NCBI GenBank assembly: GCA_029379265.1 | Contig: JAQYWN010000005.1 | Coordinates: 1-32,787 of the forward strand | DNA from: Rhizonema sp. NSF051 | GTDB taxonomy: Bacteria > Cyanobacteriota > Cyanobacteriia > Cyanobacteriales > Nostocaceae | Length of the DNA: 32,787 nt | Reading direction: 5' to 3' | Shown here: positions 9,173 to 32,774 of the stretch, piece by piece | How positions within the stretch are numbered: the stretch's first letter is position 1 | Layout: the number at the start of each line of letters is the position of its first letter | Program-made: the position numbers and the translations under genes | Notes under the pieces: generated by a model | The model's input: the letters and a program-made list of their open reading frames with translations, nothing else | Told to the model about the DNA's origin: nothing | The model's database searches: none

Positions 9173-10036
9173 TTATGATTCGCGTCCACCACGACCGCGC
9201 TTGGAAGACTTGCGGCGACGACGTACAATCAACTTGCTACTGGGTTTTTTCGGTTTGCGTGTTTTCAAACCCAAAGCAGGTTTACCCCAAGGTGTCACAG
9301 GTCCCGATCTCCCGATGGGTGCTCTACCTTCACCACCACCGTGGGGATGGTCTACTGGGTTCATGACACTACCTCTAACGGTAGGACGGCGACCTTTCCA
9401 ACGGTTTCTTCCTGCTTTACCCAAACTTAGGTTGCGGGCCTCGATGTTGCCTACTTGTCCGATGGTGGCGTAGCACTCGCGCCGGATCATGCGGACTTCT
9501 CCTGAAGGTAACCTCAGAGTAACGTAGCTACCCTCTTTTGCCATCACCTGAGCTGTGGCACCTGCTGAACGAACGAATTGAGCACCTTTTCCAGGTGTTA
9601 GTTCGACGTTATGAACGTTGCTTCCCAAGGGAATGTTAGACAGGGGTAAAGCATTACCATTTTCGATTGGAGCATCGGAACCTGCAATAATTGTTGTTCC
9701 CACTGCCAAACCTTGGGGATGGAGAATGTAACGCTTTTCGCCGTCTTGGTATTCTAAAAGGGCAATCCGCGCATTCCGGTTTGGATCGTATTCAACTGCT
9801 ACAACTTTAGCTGGAATACTACGCTTATCCCGTTTAAAGTCAATAATGCGATAAAGACGTTTGTGTCCGCCACCCCGGTGCCGACAGGTAATACGCCCTT
9901 GATTATTTCGACCTTTGCGGCGATGTATGTGTTCTGTTAGTGATTTCTCAGGCTTCGATTTCGTAATTTCAGCAAAATCAGAGATCGTTACCTGACGAGT
10001 ACTGGGGGTATAAGGGCGAAAAGAACGGGTACCCAT
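9173..10036 (-). CDS. rplB: 50S ribosomal protein L2
   Basis: L2 is a 23S rRNA-binding protein needed for subunit joining and peptidyl transfer. The 287-residue protein contains [14 protein letters not shown], the SH3-like core, and the hallmark [18 protein letters not shown] near the C-terminus, followed by a very basic tail ([16 protein letters not shown]). The length is slightly above the bacterial average and typical for cyanobacteria. ATG start at 10034-10036, followed by a heptamer-repeat gap toward rplW. Confidence 0.98.
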
Positions 10037-22116: not shown

Positions 22117-22274
22117 GTTTTTGTAAATTAACTAATTATTTGGGTTCTTGTCCGCGTTGACAAATTTACGTCGTCAAATACTATTGGCTAACCATTAACA
22201 AAATCATGACTTACGCAAAAATGGTCAAAAAGCTTAATACAATGCCTATAGACCACAACTTTCTAGGTATCTCT

Positions 22275-22478
22275 CTACTGCATTTTCTCAAGCAATACTA
22301 TATCCTGCTTCAACACATCATTTAGCAAGTCACTCAACTCAACCCCCTTTGCTTCTGCTCGCTTGGCAAAAAATTCCACTACCTCATCAGCCAAATAAAT
22401 AGGTATTTTTAACGTCATATCCTCGCGGTAAAACTTTCCTCGCTCCGCTCCCGAAAAATCATATTCAGGCTGCATCAT
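22275..22478 (-). CDS. Antitoxin-like small protein, ribbon-helix-helix type
   Basis: The 67-residue protein reads MQPEYDFSGAERGKFYRED at the N-terminus, then TLKIPIYLADEVVEFFAKRA and a helical C-terminus (LSDLLNDVLKQDI). The EYDFS-RGKFYR opening followed by a short strand and two helices is the form of CopG/BrnA-type antitoxins and of a common cyanobacterial family. No toxin gene flanks it: mutS ends 158 bp to the left and an HsdS relic begins at the right. An orphan or degraded toxin-antitoxin pair is likely. Two ATG codons are in tandem at the start. Confidence 0.7.
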   Translation of the reverse strand: MMQPEYDFSGAERGKFYREDMTLKIPIYLADEVVEFFAKRAEAKGVELSDLLNDVLKQDIVLLEKMQ

Positions 22479-22496
22479 ACTCCTCCCTCATAGTTT

Positions 22497-22666
22497 CCTT
22501 TTCAATTCTAGTCCCACCTATCTCCAAACGACGCCGCATCGTTGCCTACCTCAATGAACTCCATGCCAAGGTAGATATAATGAAGCGACTCTGAGAAGAG
22601 GTGATGAAATAATTTGATGCGCTGTAACCTTTTATACTTGACAAAGGATTCAAAGGGGAACAGTAA
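22497..22666 (+). pseudogene. Relic of type I restriction specificity subunit HsdS (C-terminal end)
   Basis: One frame reads ILVPPISKRRRIVAYLNELH, AKVDIMKRL, then a stop, EEVMK, a stop, FDAL, a stop, PFILDKGFKGEQ and a final stop. Normal HsdS tails read like LPPL-EQRRIVAYLDEL, AKVD-LK-LQ and LDALLPSILDKAFKGEL, so the match continues through three in-frame stops (22592, 22610, 22625). Only the C-terminal coiled-coil spacer region remains. No hsdM or hsdR is seen. This indicates that a type I system once lay here. Confidence 0.8.
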
Positions 22667-22695
22667 ATATTTGGTATATAAAATAACAACTTAGT

Positions 22696-22920
22696 ATGAA
22701 GTCAGAAGACTTTCAAAATAGCCCAACAGGTCGATTAGTGCAAATTATACAAGGAGAAAATCCTTGTTTTGCTTTTGTTCCAAACCCTTTACCACCAGTG
22801 CTAGAACTCGATACAGAAATTTGGCGCACACTTTCTGATGCTGACCGAGCCTTGGGTGAACTTGCAGGATTAGGACGTACTATGCCCTCGCTGCTTACCG
22901 TAGAGAAAGACAGGAATTAA
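22696..22920 (+). pseudogene. Truncated Fic/DOC-family protein, N-terminal Fic_N fragment
   Basis: The 74-residue ORF starts MKSEDFQNSPTGRLVQIIQG, then CFAFVPNPLPPVLEL and LSDADRALGELAGLGRT. This is the standard N-terminal module of Fic-type AMP-transferases. The next expected part (NPHLLIRPF and the SSRIEGT inhibition motif) and the whole Fic core with HPFxxGNG are missing. After GRTM the frame runs into unrelated sequence and stops. It is therefore a relic or non-functional fragment. The ATG start fits the family. It is joined to a different relic in another frame. Confidence 0.75.
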
Positions 22921-23072
22921 ATTCCAACGCCAGCGAACTCAATGATGATGACCAGTGGCTACTTTTTGTCCTAAATACGATCGCTAGACATCCCACCTAA
23001 AAAGGAGAATACTGTCTTACCATAGCCGGATTAATCTTATTCGGAAATGCGATCATCAGCAATCAAAGGTGA
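22881..23072 (+). pseudogene. Possible relic of an AlbA_2/Schlafen-type ATP-binding protein
   Basis: In one frame the segment reads YALAAYRRERQELNSNASEL, NDDDQWLLFVLNTIARHPT, a stop, KGEYCLTIAGLILFGNAIIS, then a stop. The LTIAGLILFG piece, preceded by an R-ER-N-L-D pattern, resembles the region of RecG-like/AlbA_2 proteins with a conserved LT-AGLLLFG. The remaining protein is absent. The call rests on a short motif and is tentative. It is fused out of frame to the Fic_N fragment. Confidence 0.35.
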
Positions 23073-23332
23073 TGCCAAAAAGCCGGAAACAACGTGTTTA
23101 CGTTAACACACAAGATGGTTATTTTGTACAGTGCTTAAGTCCTACAGACCTCATGTCTCAACTTAGAAGATTCTAAACTAGAAAAAACAAAAAAATAATA
23201 CACCTGGAAAGGGCCGGTCATACAGACTACAAACATTACCTTGAAAACGCCGACACTTGTTCTCAGCCAGATTTAGACAAAGCTGAACACTTACAATCGG
23301 TGATGGGTAAAGAGCCTGATTTTGCCATATAA
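23072..23332 (+). pseudogene. Unrecognised small ORF interrupted by one stop
   Basis: A frame opens with ATG and reads MPKSRKQRVYVNTQDGYFVQ, CLSPTDLMSQLRRF, a stop at 23174, then continues TRKNKKIIHLERAGHTDYKH, YLENADTCSQPDLDKAEHLQ and SVMGKEPDFAI to a stop. The two halves share a frame and a natural-looking composition, so it may be one small gene broken by a nonsense change. I do not recognise the family. Confidence 0.3.
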
Positions 23333-23439
23333 AGACAAAAATTAGCTTGGGAAATTTAGATTGAGATAAATAGTGGGCTTATCGTAAATTTTAAATCATT
23401 CATAGTACTCCATAGTCTCAACTTTTCACAAACAAACGT

Positions 23440-23523
23440 ATGCTCAAAATTTTAGTTACTTTCGGGATTACTTCTATTCTCGTTGTCAGTGGAGTTTTAG
23501 TCGTCAAAGAACCTAAAACTTAA
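23440..23523 (+). CDS. Possible 27-residue single-membrane-helix peptide
   Basis: An ATG-initiated ORF reads LKILVTFGITSILVVSGVLV then VKEPKT. It is one strong membrane helix with a positively charged end. There is no clear ribosome binding site (acaaacgt precedes the ATG) and it lies in a decayed, gene-poor stretch. It could be a small membrane protein, a TisB-like toxin or noise. Confidence 0.3.
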   Translation: MLKILVTFGITSILVVSGVLVVKEPKT

Positions 23524-23904
23524 GAGGCTGATTTTGCTCTTACCTCACGTTATTTTCAGTAAATATACGTATAAATACGAAGAGACCGAGGAAGATAGCA
23601 CAAAAATTGAGTAGAACGACAATTTATTTTTAAAGTTTTTAGTAATATTTTCAGCTTAAATAACAGCTACTTGCAATAGTGAAACTACGGATGTTGCAGT
23701 TGAATTAAAAAATTCAAGCAACCTTATCTGGTGAATTACCACACCTGTACTAACGATCCGCTTAATTCTCAGCGGCAGTAACTCTAGTTAAGGACTCATT
23801 AAAAACAGGTTACAACTCATAGCGATAGCCAAGGAATACTAGTGGATAGCACCAGTGGGTGTGAATCAAAGCAGATCTCAAAAAAAATTTAAGAGGAAAC
23901 GACT
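23524..23904. other. Gene-free stretch upstream of hicA
   Basis: These 381 bp are AT-rich with many stops in all frames. I see no recognisable gene. The end holds the hicA ribosome binding site (aagaggaaac, 23891-23900). The composition and the isolated readable scraps suggest decayed coding sequence. Confidence 0.4.
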
Positions 23905-24132
23905 ATGCCTAAGAAGATTAAGGAGTTAAAACATTGGTTACGCCAATTAGGTTTTACTGAACTCCCAGGAAAAGGAAGCCACACTAACTGGATACATCCA
24001 TTATATGCTGGAAAGCTAACGGTTTCAGGGAAAGATAGTTCGGACGCAAAACTCTACCAAGAAAAGGATGTGCAACAAGCGGTAAAAGAGGTAAAGTCCA
24101 AACAACAGCAGGAAAAGCAGGAAGATGAGTAA
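23905..24132 (+). CDS. hicA: HicA-family mRNA interferase toxin
   Basis: The 75-residue protein has the dsRBD-like HicA fold: MPKKIKELKHWLRQLGF, then GKGSHTNWIHP with the catalytic His of the family in GSHT, and LTVSGKDSSDAKLYQEKDVQ. HicA toxins cleave mRNA and are held by HicB. A good aagaggaaac site precedes the ATG. The C-terminus is Lys/Gln-rich (KSKQQQEKQEDE) and overlaps hicB by eight bases. It appears intact. Confidence 0.85.
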   Translation: MPKKIKELKHWLRQLGFTELPGKGSHTNWIHPLYAGKLTVSGKDSSDAKLYQEKDVQQAVKEVKSKQQQEKQEDE

Positions 24133-24343
24133 ATTTAAGTATCAAATGTTGATTCAATGGTCTGAAGAAGACAACTGCTTCTTAGTTGGATTTCCTGATT
24201 TTCCTGGACAGCGTTGGCGGACTCATGGCGATACTTATGAAGAAGCTGTGACAAATGGCATTGAAGCGTTAGAATCCCTAGTTGTGGCTTACGAAGCTAC
24301 AAATGAACCACTTCCACAGCCAACTGTTAATCAAGTTGCCTAA
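24125..24343 (+). CDS. hicB: HicB-family antitoxin
   Basis: The 72-residue protein has the HicB partial RNase H-like fold: YQMLIQWSEEDNCFLVGFPD, then FPGQRWRTHGDTYEEAVTNG and IEALESLVVAYEATNEPLP. It binds and neutralises HicA. No separate DNA-binding domain is visible at this length, so autorepression may be weak or may depend on the HicA complex. The ATG overlaps the hicA end, the usual toxin-first order of hicAB with coupled translation. Confidence 0.85.
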   Translation: MSKFKYQMLIQWSEEDNCFLVGFPDFPGQRWRTHGDTYEEAVTNGIEALESLVVAYEATNEPLPQPTVNQVA

Positions 24344-24433
24344 CCTTAGCTTGTTACCAAATGTTTCAGAATTGCTATACAGCCTGCAAGTTAAACTTCT
24401 TTTATTTTTAATTTCATGCAGTGATACTAGTCA

Positions 24434-24652
24434 TTACTCAATAATTTCGTCATATTGATTGGTGTCGTCTGACTGCAATTGTTCCATCTCCACCAAGACT
24501 TCAGGCAAACTTTTTTCATCAAGCCATTAATGACGTTCTTTGGTACAATCTCCTTTTCCGGGACTAAAATATTGAACAAATCGAATAGTATCGGTAACTC
24601 CCAGAAAATTTATTAAGGCCTCGTAGCCCTGTTTGATAATTTCATTTGATGG
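24434..24652 (-). pseudogene. Stop-interrupted relic of a small cyanobacterial protein family
   Basis: On the minus strand one frame reads PSNEIIKQGYEALINFLGVT, DTIRFVQYFSPGKGDCTKER, H, a stop (24527-24529), WLDEKSLPEVLVEMEQLQSD, DTNQYDEIIE and stop. I recognise the IRF-QYF-PG-GDYT-ERHQWLD pattern as a recurring small cyanobacterial protein, often in toxin-antitoxin-rich places. The stop falls where the family has Gln (CAA to TAA). The natural start is also missing. Function unknown. Confidence 0.65.
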
Positions 24653-24818
24653 TGATTATGTAACTGTCCGAGGTGTTAATGTTTTTACTGCAAATGGTGG
24701 TGCGTATTCAGCTGCAATAAGTCAAGGCAAACTTTTGGTTAGGTATAATCCCATCTGAAGTCAGTAATTCTCGATTGAATCACATACAAAATACTTTGAC
24801 CGCGTTCTTGATTGGCAT

Positions 24819-24842
24819 CCCTCTCCCAAACTTGGGAGAGGG
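24819..24842. repeat. CCCTCTCCC hairpin repeat
   Basis: ccctctcccaa at 24819-24829 and ttgggagaggg at 24832-24842 form an 11-bp perfect stem with a 2-base loop. The flank gctgggggtgagggcg is typical of a widely dispersed intergenic repeat in bacteria. It may also stop transcription between the relic zone and the helicase locus. Confidence 0.7.
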
Positions 24843-25221
24843 GCTGGGGGTGAGGGCGAGTATTGAGAACCGCCATAGATAAATGAGAGCGCGATCGCAT
24901 ACCACGACTTTTTTAGTAACCATGTACGAAAAAAGAAGATTTCCGTTTCCCCCAAGACGGGAAGGTGAGGAAATGCGATCGCCACTGAACTCACTCGTGA
25001 AATTACTGCCTTGCTTCAGCATATCTCGAGAATTTACACAATTGCTATTTAAACCTTTTTAATCTTTCTCAGAGATATTTCGGATGCTGAAATGTTACAT
25101 CTGAAACTATAACTGTCAAGCAAGTAGTAATAAATTTTATTTTGGCACGTTGGAATTAAGTAGTGAGAAATCCATTCTGACTACCTATTTTCTGCTGCCT
25201 TTACACCAAAACAGGGAAACG

Positions 25222-26886
25222 ATGACAGAAATCTTGACCCCCACACCCGGTTCTATAGTCAGTTGTCGCCGTCGGCAGTGGGTTGTGCTGCCTGCTGAAA
25301 ATAAAGATGTGATTCGATTGCGTCCCTTGGGTGGCAATGAAGACGAAATCGCGGGAATCTTTCAGTTGCTGGGGCTGGAAACTCTTGAACCTGCAATATT
25401 TCCCTTGCCAAGTTCAATTGGGGTCAAAGATCATACATCGGCACTCTTACTGATGGATGCAGCTCGTCACTTACTACGGAGTGGGGCGGGGCCATTTCGC
25501 TGCTTGGGACGGTTATCGCTGCGTCCCCGTCCTTATCAGTTAGTCCCTTTATTAATGGCATTGCGATTGGCAACAGTCAGATTACTGGTAGCAGATGATG
25601 TTGGTATCGGTAAAACTATTGAAGCTGGATTAATTGCCCGTGAACTCTTGGATAGAGGTGAGGTAAAGCGGATTGCAGTTTTGTGTCCTCCGCATTTGTG
25701 CGAGCAGTGGCATACTGAATTACGAGAAAAATTTCATATTGATGCGGTGGTGGTACGCTCGGGTACGGCTTCTAAGTTGGAGAGGGCAATACCTAATAAT
25801 TCTCATATATTTAGTTATTATCAACACCTGATTGTCAGCTTGGACTATGCTAAGGCTGAACGTCGCCGTGCAAGTTTTGTGACACACTGCCCTGATTTGG
25901 TGATTGTGGATGAGGCACATACTTGTACTCGTTCCAGTAATAAGAGTACATCCCAGCAGCAACGTCATCAACTTATTCAGGAAATTGCTCATAAAAGCGA
26001 TCGCCATTTATTGCTCCTGACAGCGACTCCTCACAGTGGTATTGAAGAGGCTTTTCTGTCGCTGCTAGGTTTACTCAAGCCTGAGTTTGAACATGTGAGC
26101 TTAGATAGACTGACTGAGCAACAGCGAACTCAGCTAGCAAGTCATTTTGTGCAACGGCGGCGGGCAGATGTCAAGCAGTGGTTGGGAAATGAGACTCCTT
26201 TTCCGGAAAGAGAATCAGAGGAAAAGCCTTACAAGTTATCGAAGGAGTACAAGCAGTTATTTGAGGATGTCTATAACTTTGCTCGTGGGCTGGTAAAAAC
26301 GACGACACAAGACATGAGCTATGCCCAACGTCGGGGACGTTATTGGGCAGCTTTGGCTTTGATTCGTTGCGTTATGTCTTCCCCTGCTGCCGCAGTCGCA
26401 ACATTAAACCGTCAGGTGAGTAAATCCGGTGGCGAAATACTTGCCGATTTAGACGAAGACTTGATGAGTTCCTACGTCTACGACTCTACAGAGCTTGAGC
26501 AAGTTGTTGATGCACCTCCCACTGTCGTCGTCGAACAGGGACAACAAAGTTATGGTGATGCAGATAAACGCAAACTCAGAGCTTTTGTGCAAGCAGCTGA
26601 TAAGTTACACGGTGAGAAAGACCAAAAGTTGCAATCATGTATTGCTTTCATCCAAAGTTTACTCTCAGACGGTTATAACGCGATTATTTGGTGTCGCTAT
26701 ATTGCCACAGCGAAATATGTTGCTGATGCTCTGAAGCAGAAACTAGAGAAGAAGGGTAGTCAAATTCGCGTCATTGCCATCACTGGAGAACTGTCAGAGG
26801 ATGAGCGAGAAATCCGCCTTCAAGAGTTAAGGGTTTGCGAGTTACTTTTCGCTTGTTTGATGAAAACTGGCGGGGAGAGTATTTAG
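25222..26886 (+). CDS. DrmD-like SNF2-family helicase, C-terminally truncated
   Basis: The 554-residue product starts at the ATG at 25222, with aggga before it; the longer TTG form (25150) adds a non-family leader. It resembles DISARM DrmD: an N-terminal domain (SIVSCRRRQWVVLPAENKD, RLRPLGGNEDEIAGI), then the SNF2 core with Walker A ADDVGIGKT (124-132), VDEAH (229-233) and TATPHSG (267-273). The second RecA lobe starts (IIWCRYIATAKYVADAL, ITGELSEDEREIRLQEL) but ends abruptly at residue 537. A 17-residue out-of-frame tail follows. Motifs V and VI are missing, so ATP-driven activity is unlikely. The cut coincides with the methylase N-terminal loss. Confidence 0.75.
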   Translation: MTEILTPTPGSIVSCRRRQWVVLPAENKDVIRLRPLGGNEDEIAGIFQLLGLETLEPAIFPLPSSIGVKDHTSALLLMDAARHLLRSGAGPFRCLGRLSLRPRPYQLVPLLMALRLATVRLLVADDVGIGKTIEAGLIARELLDRGEVKRIAVLCPPHLCEQWHTELREKFHIDAVVVRSGTASKLERAIPNNSHIFSYYQHLIVSLDYAKAERRRASFVTHCPDLVIVDEAHTCTRSSNKSTSQQQRHQLIQEIAHKSDRHLLLLTATPHSGIEEAFLSLLGLLKPEFEHVSLDRLTEQQRTQLASHFVQRRRADVKQWLGNETPFPERESEEKPYKLSKEYKQLFEDVYNFARGLVKTTTQDMSYAQRRGRYWAALALIRCVMSSPAAAVATLNRQVSKSGGEILADLDEDLMSSYVYDSTELEQVVDAPPTVVVEQGQQSYGDADKRKLRAFVQAADKLHGEKDQKLQSCIAFIQSLLSDGYNAIIWCRYIATAKYVADALKQKLEKKGSQIRVIAITGELSEDEREIRLQELRVCELLFACLMKTGGESI

Positions 26887-29705
26887 AATTGTCGCCTTTA
26901 AATGGTGATTTATTCGGTTCCAATACCCTACAAGCGTTGGATGATTGCGCCATTGATAATCACGATTTACTAGTAGCGATTCGGCATTTGTCGCTGTACC
27001 AACAAAAGGGACAATTGCGACGCGTGAATTATGCTGCTTTGGATGTGGAAGAATTAGGAAGTGTGTATGAAAGTTTGTTGGATTTTCACCCTCAGGTAAT
27101 CCAGCGTCAGGGGTTATATAAATTTGATTTGGTGTTAGGAAGCGATAGAAAAACCACTGGATCTTATTATACTCCACCACAACTCGTCCAACAACTCATC
27201 AAAACTGCATTAGAACCTGTTATTGAAGAGAAGGTTCGTAGTGCTTTACCAGATGCGCTAAAGCGTTACGAACAAGCACTCCTCAGTCTCAAAATTGTCG
27301 ATCCCGCTTGCGGCTCAGGGCATTTCCTCCTCGCTGCAGCACGTCGCCTTGGTAAAGAATTAGCTAAAATCCGCACTGGAGAAGCAGAGCCCGGATATCT
27401 ACCGTTACGCCAAGCAATTCGAGATGTGATTCAAAACTGTATTTATGGGGTGGATATCAACCCTTTGGCAGTAGATTTATGCAAAGTGGCGCTATGGATT
27501 GAAGGCTTTGCTAGTGGGATGCCACTCAACTTTTTAGATCACAGAATTAAGTGTGGCAATTCCCTCGTGGGGGTATTGGATATCAGTTGTCTGGAAGAGG
27601 GAATTCCCGATGAAGCATACAAAGCTGTGACGGGGGATGATAAGAAGTTATCAACACAGTTTAAAAAGCGGAATCAGAAAGAACGGGATAACCAGGGACA
27701 ATTATCGATATTTGAGAAATTGGAAGGCGATCGCGCACAGTATGCTGAAACTGCGCGGGAGTTAGGAGAAATTGCCGAAACCACACCGCAACAAGTCAGG
27801 CAAAAACAAGCGCAATACCAGCAAAGTCGTGAAAATCCCGGTTGGTGGCGAGACTATTCAGCGTGTAATTTATGGACAGCTGCATTTTTTATGCCACTAA
27901 CAGAACATAATTTACAATTATTCCCCACCACAGAAACGCTAACTCAGCTATTGCGGGGTAATTTATCAACGCAAAGGATAGTAGAGGCGGCGAATAAGTT
28001 AGCGGAGGAGAAGCACTTTTTCCACTGGTGCGTCGAGTTTCCTGAAGTGTTTGAGGTGGGTGGTTTTGATTGCGTGTTGGGAAATCCACCTTGGGAACGG
28101 ATTAAGTTGCAGGAGAAAGATTTTTTTGCGGCTCGTAATGCTGATATTGCTAAAGCTAATAAGGCAGAACGAGAAAGATTAATTAAGCTGTTATATAAAA
28201 ATAAGCCAGAGTTAGCACATGAATTTGAGCAGGCAAAACATGATGCTGAGACACAGAGTAAGTTTCTTCGTGAGTCTGGAAATTTTCCAACAACTGCTGT
28301 AGGGGATGTTAATACATATGCTTTATTTACTGAAAAAAAATGGTTGCTTACTAATAAAAAAGGATGGGTTGGTTGTATAGTCCCATCAGGAATTGCTACT
28401 GATGATTCTAACAAGATTTTTATCCAAAAAATAGTAAAAGGTTACGCTCTTGCGAGTTTCTATGATTTTACGAATAGAGGGTATATTTTTCCAGATTTAG
28501 AAAGTACACATTCATTTTCTTTATTAACGTTTTCAAGAAGAGAAGTTAAGGAAGTAAAACTAGCAGCACAGCTATGGAAAACAGATGACATAAGAAGAAT
28601 TGGCAGGGTTTATAGTCTCAAAGTTGAAGATATTAAAAAACTTAACCCAAATACCTTAAATCTTCCAATCCTTAAAACAGTTAAAGATGCTGAATTCATC
28701 AAAAGTATTTATCAAAATGTTACTGTTTTGGTAAATGAAAGTTTACACAATAACCGTTGGGGTATTTATTTCTTACGGATGTTTGACATGACAAATGATT
28801 CTGTGTCCTTTTTCTGTAAGAGAAATCAACTAGAGAAAGATGGATGGATTCTTGAAAATAATTTAATGAAGAAAGACAACCTTACTTATCTTCCTTTATA
28901 TGAGGCAAAATTGACAGACATTTTTAACCATCGTGAATCCACTTTTTCTGGAATCCCAGCGCAAGATATGTATGGTACTCGTCCCCGTACTAATAAAGCT
29001 GACTTAGAACAGCTTCAGAATCCTGACTGGATAGTTTTGCCAAGATATTGGGTGTCTCAAGAAGAGGTTTTAGTAAGAGTTCCAGAATTTTGGAAATATT
29101 CATGGTTAATTGGCTTTCGGAATACTATAAGTGCTGTTGCAGACTCAAGGAGTGTTAGATTTACGATTATTCCTAAATTTGGTGTTGGTAATTCCATGCC
29201 ATTAGTTTTTTCAGATCAAAATCCCAAAAAAGTAAGTGCATTAGTTGCTAACTTTAATTCGTTAATTCTTGATTACGTCGCAAAGCAAAAAGCAAGTGGT
29301 GGAAATTTAAACTTTTACGTTGTCCGACAACTACCCATCCTTCCCCCAGAAACATACACCCCAGAAGACACAGAATTCATCAGTACCCGCGTACTCGAAC
29401 TCGTCTACACTGCTTGGGATATGCAGCCCTTTGCCAAAGACATGGGATGCGATCGCGAACCATTTATTTGGAACAGCAACCGCCGTGCATTATTAAGAGC
29501 AGAATTAGACGCATATTACGCCAAACTCTACGGACTCACCCGTGATGAACTGCGTTATATTCTCGATCCTACTGATGTCTACGGCGAAGACTTCCCTAGT
29601 GAAACATTTCGGGTGTTGAAGAACAATGAGATTCAGCAATTTGGAGAGTATCGCACGCGAAGGTTAGTTTTGGAGGCTTGGGATAAGATGTTCGGTAAAT
29701 CTTAA
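26835..29705 (+). CDS. Eco57I/PglX-like adenine-N6 DNA methylase (DISARM DrmMI-like), N-terminally truncated
   Basis: The 956-residue ORF starts at TTG 26835, which overlaps the preceding helicase ORF. SAM-binding motif I is DPACGSGHF (156-164). The later VDINPLAVDLCKVALWIEG is motif-like, and catalytic motif IV is NPPW (417-420). A target-recognition-like region and C-terminal domain end in GEYRTRRLVLEAWDKMF. Relatives carry some hundreds of residues before RVTFRLFDENW; here that part is gone and the frame enters from helicase sequence. The start codon is therefore only nominal. In DISARM this enzyme marks host DNA. The catalytic half is intact, but expression is uncertain. Confidence 0.8.
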   Translation: MRVTFRLFDENWRGEYLELSPLNGDLFGSNTLQALDDCAIDNHDLLVAIRHLSLYQQKGQLRRVNYAALDVEELGSVYESLLDFHPQVIQRQGLYKFDLVLGSDRKTTGSYYTPPQLVQQLIKTALEPVIEEKVRSALPDALKRYEQALLSLKIVDPACGSGHFLLAAARRLGKELAKIRTGEAEPGYLPLRQAIRDVIQNCIYGVDINPLAVDLCKVALWIEGFASGMPLNFLDHRIKCGNSLVGVLDISCLEEGIPDEAYKAVTGDDKKLSTQFKKRNQKERDNQGQLSIFEKLEGDRAQYAETARELGEIAETTPQQVRQKQAQYQQSRENPGWWRDYSACNLWTAAFFMPLTEHNLQLFPTTETLTQLLRGNLSTQRIVEAANKLAEEKHFFHWCVEFPEVFEVGGFDCVLGNPPWERIKLQEKDFFAARNADIAKANKAERERLIKLLYKNKPELAHEFEQAKHDAETQSKFLRESGNFPTTAVGDVNTYALFTEKKWLLTNKKGWVGCIVPSGIATDDSNKIFIQKIVKGYALASFYDFTNRGYIFPDLESTHSFSLLTFSRREVKEVKLAAQLWKTDDIRRIGRVYSLKVEDIKKLNPNTLNLPILKTVKDAEFIKSIYQNVTVLVNESLHNNRWGIYFLRMFDMTNDSVSFFCKRNQLEKDGWILENNLMKKDNLTYLPLYEAKLTDIFNHRESTFSGIPAQDMYGTRPRTNKADLEQLQNPDWIVLPRYWVSQEEVLVRVPEFWKYSWLIGFRNTISAVADSRSVRFTIIPKFGVGNSMPLVFSDQNPKKVSALVANFNSLILDYVAKQKASGGNLNFYVVRQLPILPPETYTPEDTEFISTRVLELVYTAWDMQPFAKDMGCDREPFIWNSNRRALLRAELDAYYAKLYGLTRDELRYILDPTDVYGEDFPSETFRVLKNNEIQQFGEYRTRRLVLEAWDKMFGKS

Positions 29706-29706
29706 G

Positions 29707-29770
29707 GTTCGTAGTTGCGCTTCAGCGCCTCTTGATCCTGATGAAGATGCGCTGAAGCGCAACTACGAAC
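29707..29770. repeat. REP hairpin 1 (perfect 22-bp arms)
   Basis: The left arm (29707-29728) begins gttcgtagttgcgcttcag and the right arm (29749-29770) ends gcgcaactacgaac. The arms are exact inverted copies with a 20-base loop. It begins two bases after the methylase stop codon. It is the same repeat as the three others below and is probably mobilised by the nearby RAYT. Confidence 0.9.
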
Positions 29771-29780
29771 AAATTATAAG

Positions 29781-29840
29781 GAATTTGGGGAATATCGTGT
29801 GCGAAGGTTGGTGTTGGAGTCTTGGGATAGGAGTTCGTAG
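29781..29840 (+). pseudogene. Second, diverged copy of the methylase C-terminal tail
   Basis: The frame reads EFGEYRVRRLVLESWDRSS and stops inside the next REP. The true methylase end just upstream reads QFGEYRTRRLVLEAWDKMF. The copy has about a dozen differences over 50 bases. It may be a recombination remnant of another allele, or a duplication of the tail with its REP. Confidence 0.7.
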
Positions 29841-29890
29841 TTACGTTGTCTTCGCTCAAGATTTGAATGCGCTGAAGCGCAACTACGAAC
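29833..29890. repeat. REP hairpin 2 (left arm degenerate)
   Basis: The right arm at 29869-29890 is identical to hairpin 1 (gcgctgaagcgcaactacg and aac). The left arm at 29833-29845 keeps only gttcgtagtta and then diverges. It lies eight bases before the RAYT stop codon. Confidence 0.85.
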
Positions 29891-30503: not shown

Positions 30504-30596
30504 GTTCGTAGTTGCGCTTCAGCGCATTCAACTCTCTTTACGAAGACAGCCATCAAGATTCGTAGTTACTGAGAGCGCTGAAGCGCAACTACAAAC
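30504..30596. repeat. REP hairpin 3, upstream of the RAYT
   Basis: The left arm at 30504-30525 is identical to that of hairpin 1. The right arm at 30575-30596 differs by one base (acaaac for acgaac). The loop is longer and contains a second partial left arm (ttcgtagttact near 30560). It starts 15 bases upstream of the RAYT start codon, so gene and repeats make one mobile-looking unit. Confidence 0.9.
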
Positions 30597-30674: not shown

Positions 30675-32774
30675 ATGAAACTTCCAATAAAACTACAGGA
30701 TTTATTACAGCAGGATGAACGTGCGATCACAGCCGCGAGTACTTTTCTTAGTCAAAAGCTAGCAATTCTAGATTGTACGAGTATTGAGTCAGTTACGCCA
30801 GAACAATTAGCTCTTTTATTCTCTAGCATTCCGGAAATTTGGGATTTAACAGATATTGAAGAAGTGTTGGATTTTTCGACAGTTAATACAATTCTCAGTC
30901 ATCAACTTCGAGAGTGGATTAATAAACGAGGAAGTACAATTCAGTCAAAATCAATTACGAATTATGAATTCAAACAGAATTACCTGGACATTTTCAACTT
31001 CCGGAATGAAGTCATTGGAGACTATCGCCGCTATATTGAAAGCTTCTTAAAAATTCGCGATGCTAAAGTAAAAGCTTTTGTAGATGCCGAATTGGATAAA
31101 GGGCAATTGTGGACTGAACCTTTAATACAACTCAATCCTACCTACAAAAAAGGTGCAATTGTTAGTGAATTGGTGCAACAGCGAGTTCTTCATGAAGAGT
31201 GCGATCGCTACTTCTCTAAATATACTTTCCACTACCATCAAACACAAGCGTTCCACACGGCACAACGTCAAGAACCCTTTGTTGTCACCACAGGAACAGG
31301 TTCTGGGAAAAGCATGACTTACGTTGTGCCTATCTTTAATGATTTACTCCACCATCCGGAAATTGAGGGAGTGAGGGCAATCTTAGTTTATCCTATGAAT
31401 GCCTTAATTAACTCCCAAAAAGAAGAACTCGACAAATTTTTGCGCCAGATTCCTAACACTCACATTCGCGTTGAACAGTACACTGGACAAGAAGATTTAA
31501 CGAAGAAAACCGAAATTCAAAATAACCCTCCCCACATTTTACTGACCAACTATGTGATGCTAGAGTTAATGCTCTCTCGCACTCATGAAAATAAACTGGT
31601 AGAGTCTCCCAATTTAAAATTCCTCATACTCGATGAACTCCACACCTATCGGGGAAGACAAGGTGCAGACGTTGCCATCTTAATTCGCAAACTCCGCCAA
31701 CGCAGCAAAAATCATCATCAAATACTCTGTATTGGCACGAGCGCCACTATGTCAACGGAAGGTTCTCGCGAACAACGCCGTCAAGTTGTGGCGGATGTCG
31801 CTAGTAAGTTATTTGGTGTGGAAATCAAACCTAGCAATGTTATTGATGAAACTCTAGAGCGTTCTATCAAACGTGCTGAACCTACTATAGAGGAACTACG
31901 CCAAAGTATCCAAGCTGGTTTACCAAACGAGTCAGCACAAACGTTGGAGAATTTCCAACAGCATCCCCTCAGCGACTGGATTGAGATGAACTTCGGGTTG
32001 AAGGAAGAAGTCGTCGATGGGGTAACGGAGAATAAGATTATTACTTTCCCAACAAAATCTGCTCGGCTTGCGGCTGCATCTACTGGGAAATACACGACAT
32101 CTTCTCAAAAATCTGTGAGTTATGTTCGCCGTATACCAATTACGCTTCAGGAAGGTGCGGAGAAATTGGCTCAAGTTTGTAGTTGTGTGGCGGCAGATGA
32201 TGAAGATGCGCTGAAGCGCAACTACGAACAATGTTTGAAGGTTCTTAAACAGATGTTTCTGTGGGGAAGTAAGACTAAGGGATTGGCTTTTCGCCTGCAT
32301 CAGTTTATTTCTCAAGGGGGTAGTGTTTACGCCACGATTGAACATCGAGACAAGCGTCTTCTCACTCTTGAAGGTCAGTATACAACGACTGAAGACCGCT
32401 TGTTGTATCCGCTTGTTTTTTGTCGGGAATGCGGACAAGACTATTACGTTGTGCGCTACGATGCTGATAAGCAAATTGTCTTGCCTCAGTTACCGACGGC
32501 GTTGGATGTCAGCCCTGATGATGCAGATATTACTGAAGGTTATCTTACTTTAGATGAACGGGAACTTTGGGATGAAGGTGATGAAGATAGGCTTCCTGAC
32601 TCCTGGTTTAACGAAACTAAGAAGAAAGGGCGGGTTGCCAAGAAGGATTACATGCGGTTTATTCCCCGTAAATTGCAAGTGTTACCTAATGGCAAGACAA
32701 GTTCTCTGTTGCAGGGAACGAGTTGTTGGTTAACTCAGATCTTGCACCTGGAAACTTCAATGTTAATTCCTTGA
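30675..32774 (+). CDS. DEAD/DEAH helicase of the DUF1998-linked type, C-terminus lost
   Basis: The 699-residue ORF has an N-terminal region (FRNEVIGDYRRYIESFLKI, LNPTYKKGAIVSELV) known to me from large helicases in DISARM-like loci. The helicase domain has Walker A TGTGSGKS (206-213), VYPMNAL (about 238-244), DELH (320-323) and GTSATMS (354-360). A Cys-pair segment FCRECGQDYYVV follows near residue 580. The second RecA lobe and the DUF1998 zinc part expected in such 1500-2000-residue proteins do not follow. After LLQGTSCW the frame turns non-family and stops at 32774. It is therefore truncated or frameshifted; the sequence after 32787 is not seen. Confidence 0.72.
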   Translation: MKLPIKLQDLLQQDERAITAASTFLSQKLAILDCTSIESVTPEQLALLFSSIPEIWDLTDIEEVLDFSTVNTILSHQLREWINKRGSTIQSKSITNYEFKQNYLDIFNFRNEVIGDYRRYIESFLKIRDAKVKAFVDAELDKGQLWTEPLIQLNPTYKKGAIVSELVQQRVLHEECDRYFSKYTFHYHQTQAFHTAQRQEPFVVTTGTGSGKSMTYVVPIFNDLLHHPEIEGVRAILVYPMNALINSQKEELDKFLRQIPNTHIRVEQYTGQEDLTKKTEIQNNPPHILLTNYVMLELMLSRTHENKLVESPNLKFLILDELHTYRGRQGADVAILIRKLRQRSKNHHQILCIGTSATMSTEGSREQRRQVVADVASKLFGVEIKPSNVIDETLERSIKRAEPTIEELRQSIQAGLPNESAQTLENFQQHPLSDWIEMNFGLKEEVVDGVTENKIITFPTKSARLAAASTGKYTTSSQKSVSYVRRIPITLQEGAEKLAQVCSCVAADDEDALKRNYEQCLKVLKQMFLWGSKTKGLAFRLHQFISQGGSVYATIEHRDKRLLTLEGQYTTTEDRLLYPLVFCRECGQDYYVVRYDADKQIVLPQLPTALDVSPDDADITEGYLTLDERELWDEGDEDRLPDSWFNETKKKGRVAKKDYMRFIPRKLQVLPNGKTSSLLQGTSCWLTQILHLETSMLIP
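32175..32229 (+). repeat. REP hairpin 4, inside the helicase ORF
   Basis: The right arm (32208-32229) is identical to that of hairpin 1, and identity extends to about 34 bases including gatgaagatgcgc. A degenerate left arm (gtttgtagttgtg) begins at 32175. It is read in frame as part of the helicase, coding DEDALKRNYEQ. Confidence 0.85.

Follow-up and report, generated by a model that had tools for sequence, protein, structure and literature searches.

A 2.3-kb deletion that very probably truncated armA and armB and inactivated an ARMADA-like anti-phage operon in a Rhizonema genome

In the genome of Rhizonema sp. NSF051, a member of a genus of lichen partners, a gene encoding an SNF2-type helicase runs into a methylase gene with an overlap of 52 bp between the two open reading frames. 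The question raised by this locus is whether the overlapping frames form a compact functional gene pair, reflect a fault of the assembly or are the scar of a deletion. The analysed window, i.e. the whole stretch of 32,787 nucleotides, is contig C618 of a 7.9-Mb draft genome (G000) consisting of 1,010 contigs, and the junction was read from this assembled sequence. The genus set comprised four genomes, namely that of the window and three sisters: Rhizonema sp. PD38 (G001, JAQYWP010000047), an uncultured Scytonema bin (G002, CALMVQ010000319) and Rhizonema sp. PD37 (G003, JAQYWO010000125). The latter, which is of the same genus and displays approximately 90-93% DNA identity to the window, provided the comparison locus (L032). 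A genome of another genus (G010) was also included, and G013 served as the reference for the losses in G010 and for the length of armC. The literature searched contained no publication on Rhizonema genomes from Dictyonema. The explanation most strongly favored by these comparisons is that a natural deletion of 2.3 kb cut both armA and armB and thereby inactivated a cyanobacterial operon resembling the anti-phage system ARMADA (ArmA-ArmB-ArmC; Bell et al. 2025, PMC12458937). The features of the window are listed in Table 1.

Table 1. Coordinates of the junction, the gene remnants and the repeat copies in the window
Feature	Position	Strand	Basis or remark
armA remnant, SNF2/RapA (BrxHII/DrmD-like) helicase, truncated	25222..26886	+	comparison with relatives
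Deletion junction	26830..26831	.	2,301 bp of G003 missing; 1 bp common to both breakpoints
armB remnant, Eco57I/PglX/DrmMI-like adenine methyltransferase	26835..29705	+	comparison with relatives
armC remnant, YprA/DruE-like helicase	30675..32774	+	comparison with relatives
22-bp element copies	29707-29728, 29749-29770, 29869-29890	-, +, +	
22-bp element copies	30504-30525, 30575-30596, 32208-32229	-, +, +	second copy inexact

The junction and the missing segment

Upon DNA alignment with the PD37 locus, the left flank of the join pairs up to position 7191 of L032 and the right flank from position 9492, each at approximately 90-93% identity. The window is collinear with this relative on both sides of the join and is shorter by 2,301 bp. 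As judged from the PD37 sequence, the missing segment carries the helicase C-terminus, the helicase stop codon, a short spacer and about 350 methylase codons; helicase motifs V (VLVATDCLSEGVNLQ) and VI (REGRIDRYGQ) both fall inside it. The 5' part of the helicase gene is joined at 26830/26831 to the 3' part of the methylase gene in a different frame. No fusion protein is produced because the joined frames are offset, and the overlap of the two reading frames is a mechanical outcome of the same offset. A preliminary description of this DNA had attributed the shortening of both genes to one event near 26831, a proposal supported by the DNA of the relatives, in which a single internal deletion accounts for the join. 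Its reading of the residues was also accurate. The helicase, described as family-like until LQELR and then ending in a 17-residue tail, is family-like up to ...EIRLQEL; the next codon (AGG, encoding R, where the intact sister genomes have K) straddles the join, and between it and the stop codon at 26884-26886 lie exactly 17 unrelated residues, VCELLFACLMKTGGESI. The methylase frame, said to start family-like at that same point and to lack its N-terminal domain, does so with LRVTFRLFDENWRGEYLELS at 26835, the upstream part being absent.

Comparison with the relatives thus confirms the deletion scar in the sequence as assembled. The segment was searched for in the rest of the G000 assembly and no copy was retrieved, the only matches being a weak one of 75 bp and a dispersed repeat of 29 bp; a relocation elsewhere in the genome was rejected on this ground. 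A programmed frameshift linking the two frames was set aside, as no slippery heptamer was seen at the overlap on inspection by eye. The junction was also looked for in the three sister genomes, where it is absent, and occurs only in the genome of the window.

An assembly or library artefact, in which a chimeric read or a mis-join would have skipped 2.3 kb truly present in the organism, might be suspected in a draft of 1,010 contigs, the more so as the odd 3'-terminal sequence of armC sits at a contig end. However, the homology at the join is limited to 1 bp and therefore provides no repeat on which an assembler could have collapsed the sequence, which renders an assembly collapse through a repeat unlikely. 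The skipped segment is moreover found on no other contig, and three other assemblies (G001, G002 and G010) display independent clean deletions at the same locus. The artefact as a whole is accordingly considered improbable.

Gene remnants and their selective history

In intact relatives, the pair consists of a SNF2/RapA helicase of about 950 aa and an Eco57I-type methyltransferase of about 1,300 aa, usually separated by tens of bp to approximately 150 bp, and such full-length, closely spaced genes are found in many Nostocales and other cyanobacteria. In the window, the helicase reading frame spans 25150-26886 and the more likely start of armA is the ATG at 25222 rather than the TTG at 25150, because the homologues start there. 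The remnant keeps about 536 family residues of the 943-951 or so present in the intact proteins; motifs V and VI are gone, and the helicase motor is thereby deprived of its second half. The armB remnant is deprived of some 343-358 N-terminal residues; its frame is open for 956 codons and retains motif I (PACGSGHFL), NPPW and the C-terminal specificity region. Its first in-frame ATG, at 27519, is located downstream of motif I, so that a product bearing this motif would have to begin at TTG or GTG. The armC gene is family-like to about position 32732 (residue 658 of 1,788 in G013) and then turns into an unrelated tail next to the end of the contig; the 1,130 or so further residues of the gene were not found in the assembly of the window.

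Several other irregularities were observed around these genes. The region 22117-25149, which precedes the helicase, consists of short open frames in patchwork form; compared with the sister genomes, it shows large insertions and deletions as well as displaced pieces. Positions 28333-29262 of armB are about 70% identical to the sister genomes or unalignable, between flanks at 88-92%, as would be expected if a target-recognition region had been exchanged. Just downstream of armB, at 29779-29832, the end of this gene (29635-29688) occurs a second time in diverged form (81%), perhaps as a duplication remnant. Finally, 32732-32787 matches, in the opposite orientation, the interval from methylase to armC of another genome, G006 (49 bp, 90%), and the change at this point may represent an inversion or second rearrangement, or else a contig-end chimera.

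The proposed sequence of events is as follows. An illegitimate, near-blunt recombination would have deleted 2.3 kb, taking approximately 40% of armA at its 3' end and 27% of armB at its 5' end and inactivating the operon. In the E. coli ARMADA operon, the loss of any single gene abolishes protection (PMC12458937), and since every gene is essential in that operon, the ArmA and ArmB remnant proteins are presumed to be non-functional. With armA, armB and armC each truncated, the window copy does not have all ARMADA components intact, and the operon is very probably dead in this genome.

The alternative is that the short genes still work, either as a functional minimal overlapping pair or at least as a stand-alone methylase produced from the truncated armB. 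Re-initiation could take place at TTG 26889, which closely follows the stop codon of the helicase and is preceded by GGGGAG, and the armB frame is open with its catalytic motifs preserved. The ratio of nonsynonymous to synonymous change (omega) of 0.18 on the window branch also does not differ from that of the sisters (Fisher p = 0.48). Against this, no ATG precedes motif I, the N-terminal domain is a conserved part of the intact homologues, motifs V and VI are gone from the helicase remnant, and the low omega would be equally explained by a recent deletion. The preliminary description had pointed to the occurrence of the same short proteins in relatives as one observation against the deletion; none of the relatives has them, the two proteins being full-length with a short spacer between their genes, and a conserved short overlapping gene pair was rejected for this reason. 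The same account had ranked an inactivation scar above a minimal overlapping pair, a ranking supported by the full-length genes of the relatives and the single deletion. A functional pair or stand-alone enzyme is therefore held to be very improbable, and so is the specific case of a truncated armB persisting under selection as a DNA methylase without its N-terminal domain; if true, the latter would mean that a defence operon had been pared down to its modification enzyme.

The substitutions on the window branch bear on the age of the deletion. They amount to 22 nonsynonymous and 34 synonymous changes in the aligned part of armB and to 12/19 and 9/16, respectively, in two overlapping parts of armA. 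The resulting omega of 0.17-0.18 departs strongly from neutrality (p between 2e-5 and 3e-10), and the armB ratio does not differ from that of the sister branches (the Fisher test given above). Both remnants are free of stops. A long-standing neutrality of the remnants is rejected by these values, and, if the background omega is taken as 0.12, a neutral interval exceeding about 20% of the branch is disfavored. Because the remnants still show purifying selection, the deletion is probably recent. A retained function of a remnant is the less likely reading of the low omega; for armB it would give an equal signal and has no other support.

Lesions and repeats across the genus

The locus is broken in all four genomes of the genus, each time by different lesions. 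In PD38, two copies of a stretch of about 11 bases containing GCGATCGC bound a loss of 1,004 bp, and a further 1,545 bp, likewise running from armA into armB, is missing as well. Losses of 517 bp and 266 bp are found in the Scytonema bin. In PD37 the helicase is full-length and armB contains an in-frame TAG. Outside the genus, comparison of G010 with G013 reveals losses of 1,109, 674, 3,654, 1,526 and 703 bp in the former. Relaxed selection on the operon within the genus may have permitted this repeated decay.

The left breakpoint of the window and the right end of the 517-bp loss in G002 are no more than one base apart, and G010 has a third breakpoint about 35 bp away. Under uniform placement the chance is approximately 0.02 per coincidence, a post hoc figure, and the proximity could denote, instead of random decay, that this site of armA is a deletion hotspot or undergoes directed rearrangement. 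The breakpoints nevertheless share no common sequence motif or consistent homology, many others are scattered, and the test was picked after the data were seen and concerns few events. We consider such a hotspot most doubtful and retain independent deletions as the preferred reading.

A dispersed 22-bp element, GCGCTGAAGCGCAACTACGAAC, containing a palindrome-like GCGCTGAAGCGC part, is also present in the region (Table 1). It occurs in 25 exact copies in the genome of the window and in 13, 6 and 19 copies in the sister genomes, with none for a control pattern; it was looked for in ten homologous loci outside the genus and none was found there. Some copies are in frame inside genes, encoding the peptide ALKRNYEQ: one in armC adjoins an insertion absent from the relatives and another, in PD37 armB, falls within the segment deleted in the window. 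The element looks like a mobile repeat of the genus entering coding sequence.

Relation to known defence systems

The preliminary description had named the two genes DrmD and DrmMI, after the DISARM system, an assignment replaced here by the ArmA-ArmB pair of ARMADA. The intact helicase homologue matches the DrmD/BrxHII/DpdE models and the Pfam domains SNF2-rel_dom and Helicase_C, in line with the BrxHII/RapA-like helicase of ARMADA, and the adjacent methyltransferase matches Eco57I/N6_Mtase, DrmMI and PglX, in keeping with the PglX/YeeA-like methyltransferase of ARMADA. In most relatives the pair is followed by a DruE-like helicase of about 1,800 aa with DEAD, Helicase_C and MZB domains. This agrees with the report that the ARMADA helicase-methylase pair precedes a YprA-like helicase in many cyanobacteria (PMC12458937). 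Intact helicase homologues score 392 and 377 bits, against a curated cut-off of 610 for DrmD, and the genes scanned in L035/L036, L040 and L043, whose neighbourhoods are intact, include no DrmA, DrmB or DrmC. Membership of DISARM was rejected in view of these scores, the missing DrmA/DrmB neighbours and the position upstream of the large YprA/DruE-like helicase. As the PADLOC-DB 2023 defence library used here had no ARMADA model among its matches, ARMADA fragments can be misread as DISARM.

By gene content, order and domains, the locus fits an ARMADA-like operon. It shares with ARMADA a BrxHII/RapA-like helicase and a PglX-like methyltransferase. The third gene would correspond to the unsplit, DruE-like YprA helicase of ARMADA with its C-terminal Vsr-type nuclease; the 1,788-aa DruE-like protein weakly matches the Vsr-type model MTES_1575 at its C-terminus (21.5 bits, below the cut-off of 38.2). 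A ParE/RelE-UvrD (GajB-like) gene is likewise present in some relatives (L040 and L043), although it lies there between the methylase and the YprA-like helicase and not at the end, and in the window all three genes are truncated. Class 1 DISARM (DrmD-DrmMI-DrmA-DrmB-DrmC) has the homologous SNF2 helicase and adenine methylase in common with the locus, whereas the YprA-type helicase is here a single protein of about 1,800 aa that most resembles DruE. The locus provides a well-resolved example of a multi-gene phage-defence operon dying by clean kilobase deletions, each of the four genomes compared within one cyanobacterial genus being hit differently, whereas both genes have stayed intact in many relatives outside it. 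This is an ordinary pseudogenisation of a defence operon, whose one unusual trait is that different lesions broke it in four of four genomes. Like other cases of pseudogenisation by large clean deletions, it shows near-blunt losses of 0.3-3.7 kb that leave conserved flanks, and differs from them in nothing of principle; here, several lineages were hit at one operon.
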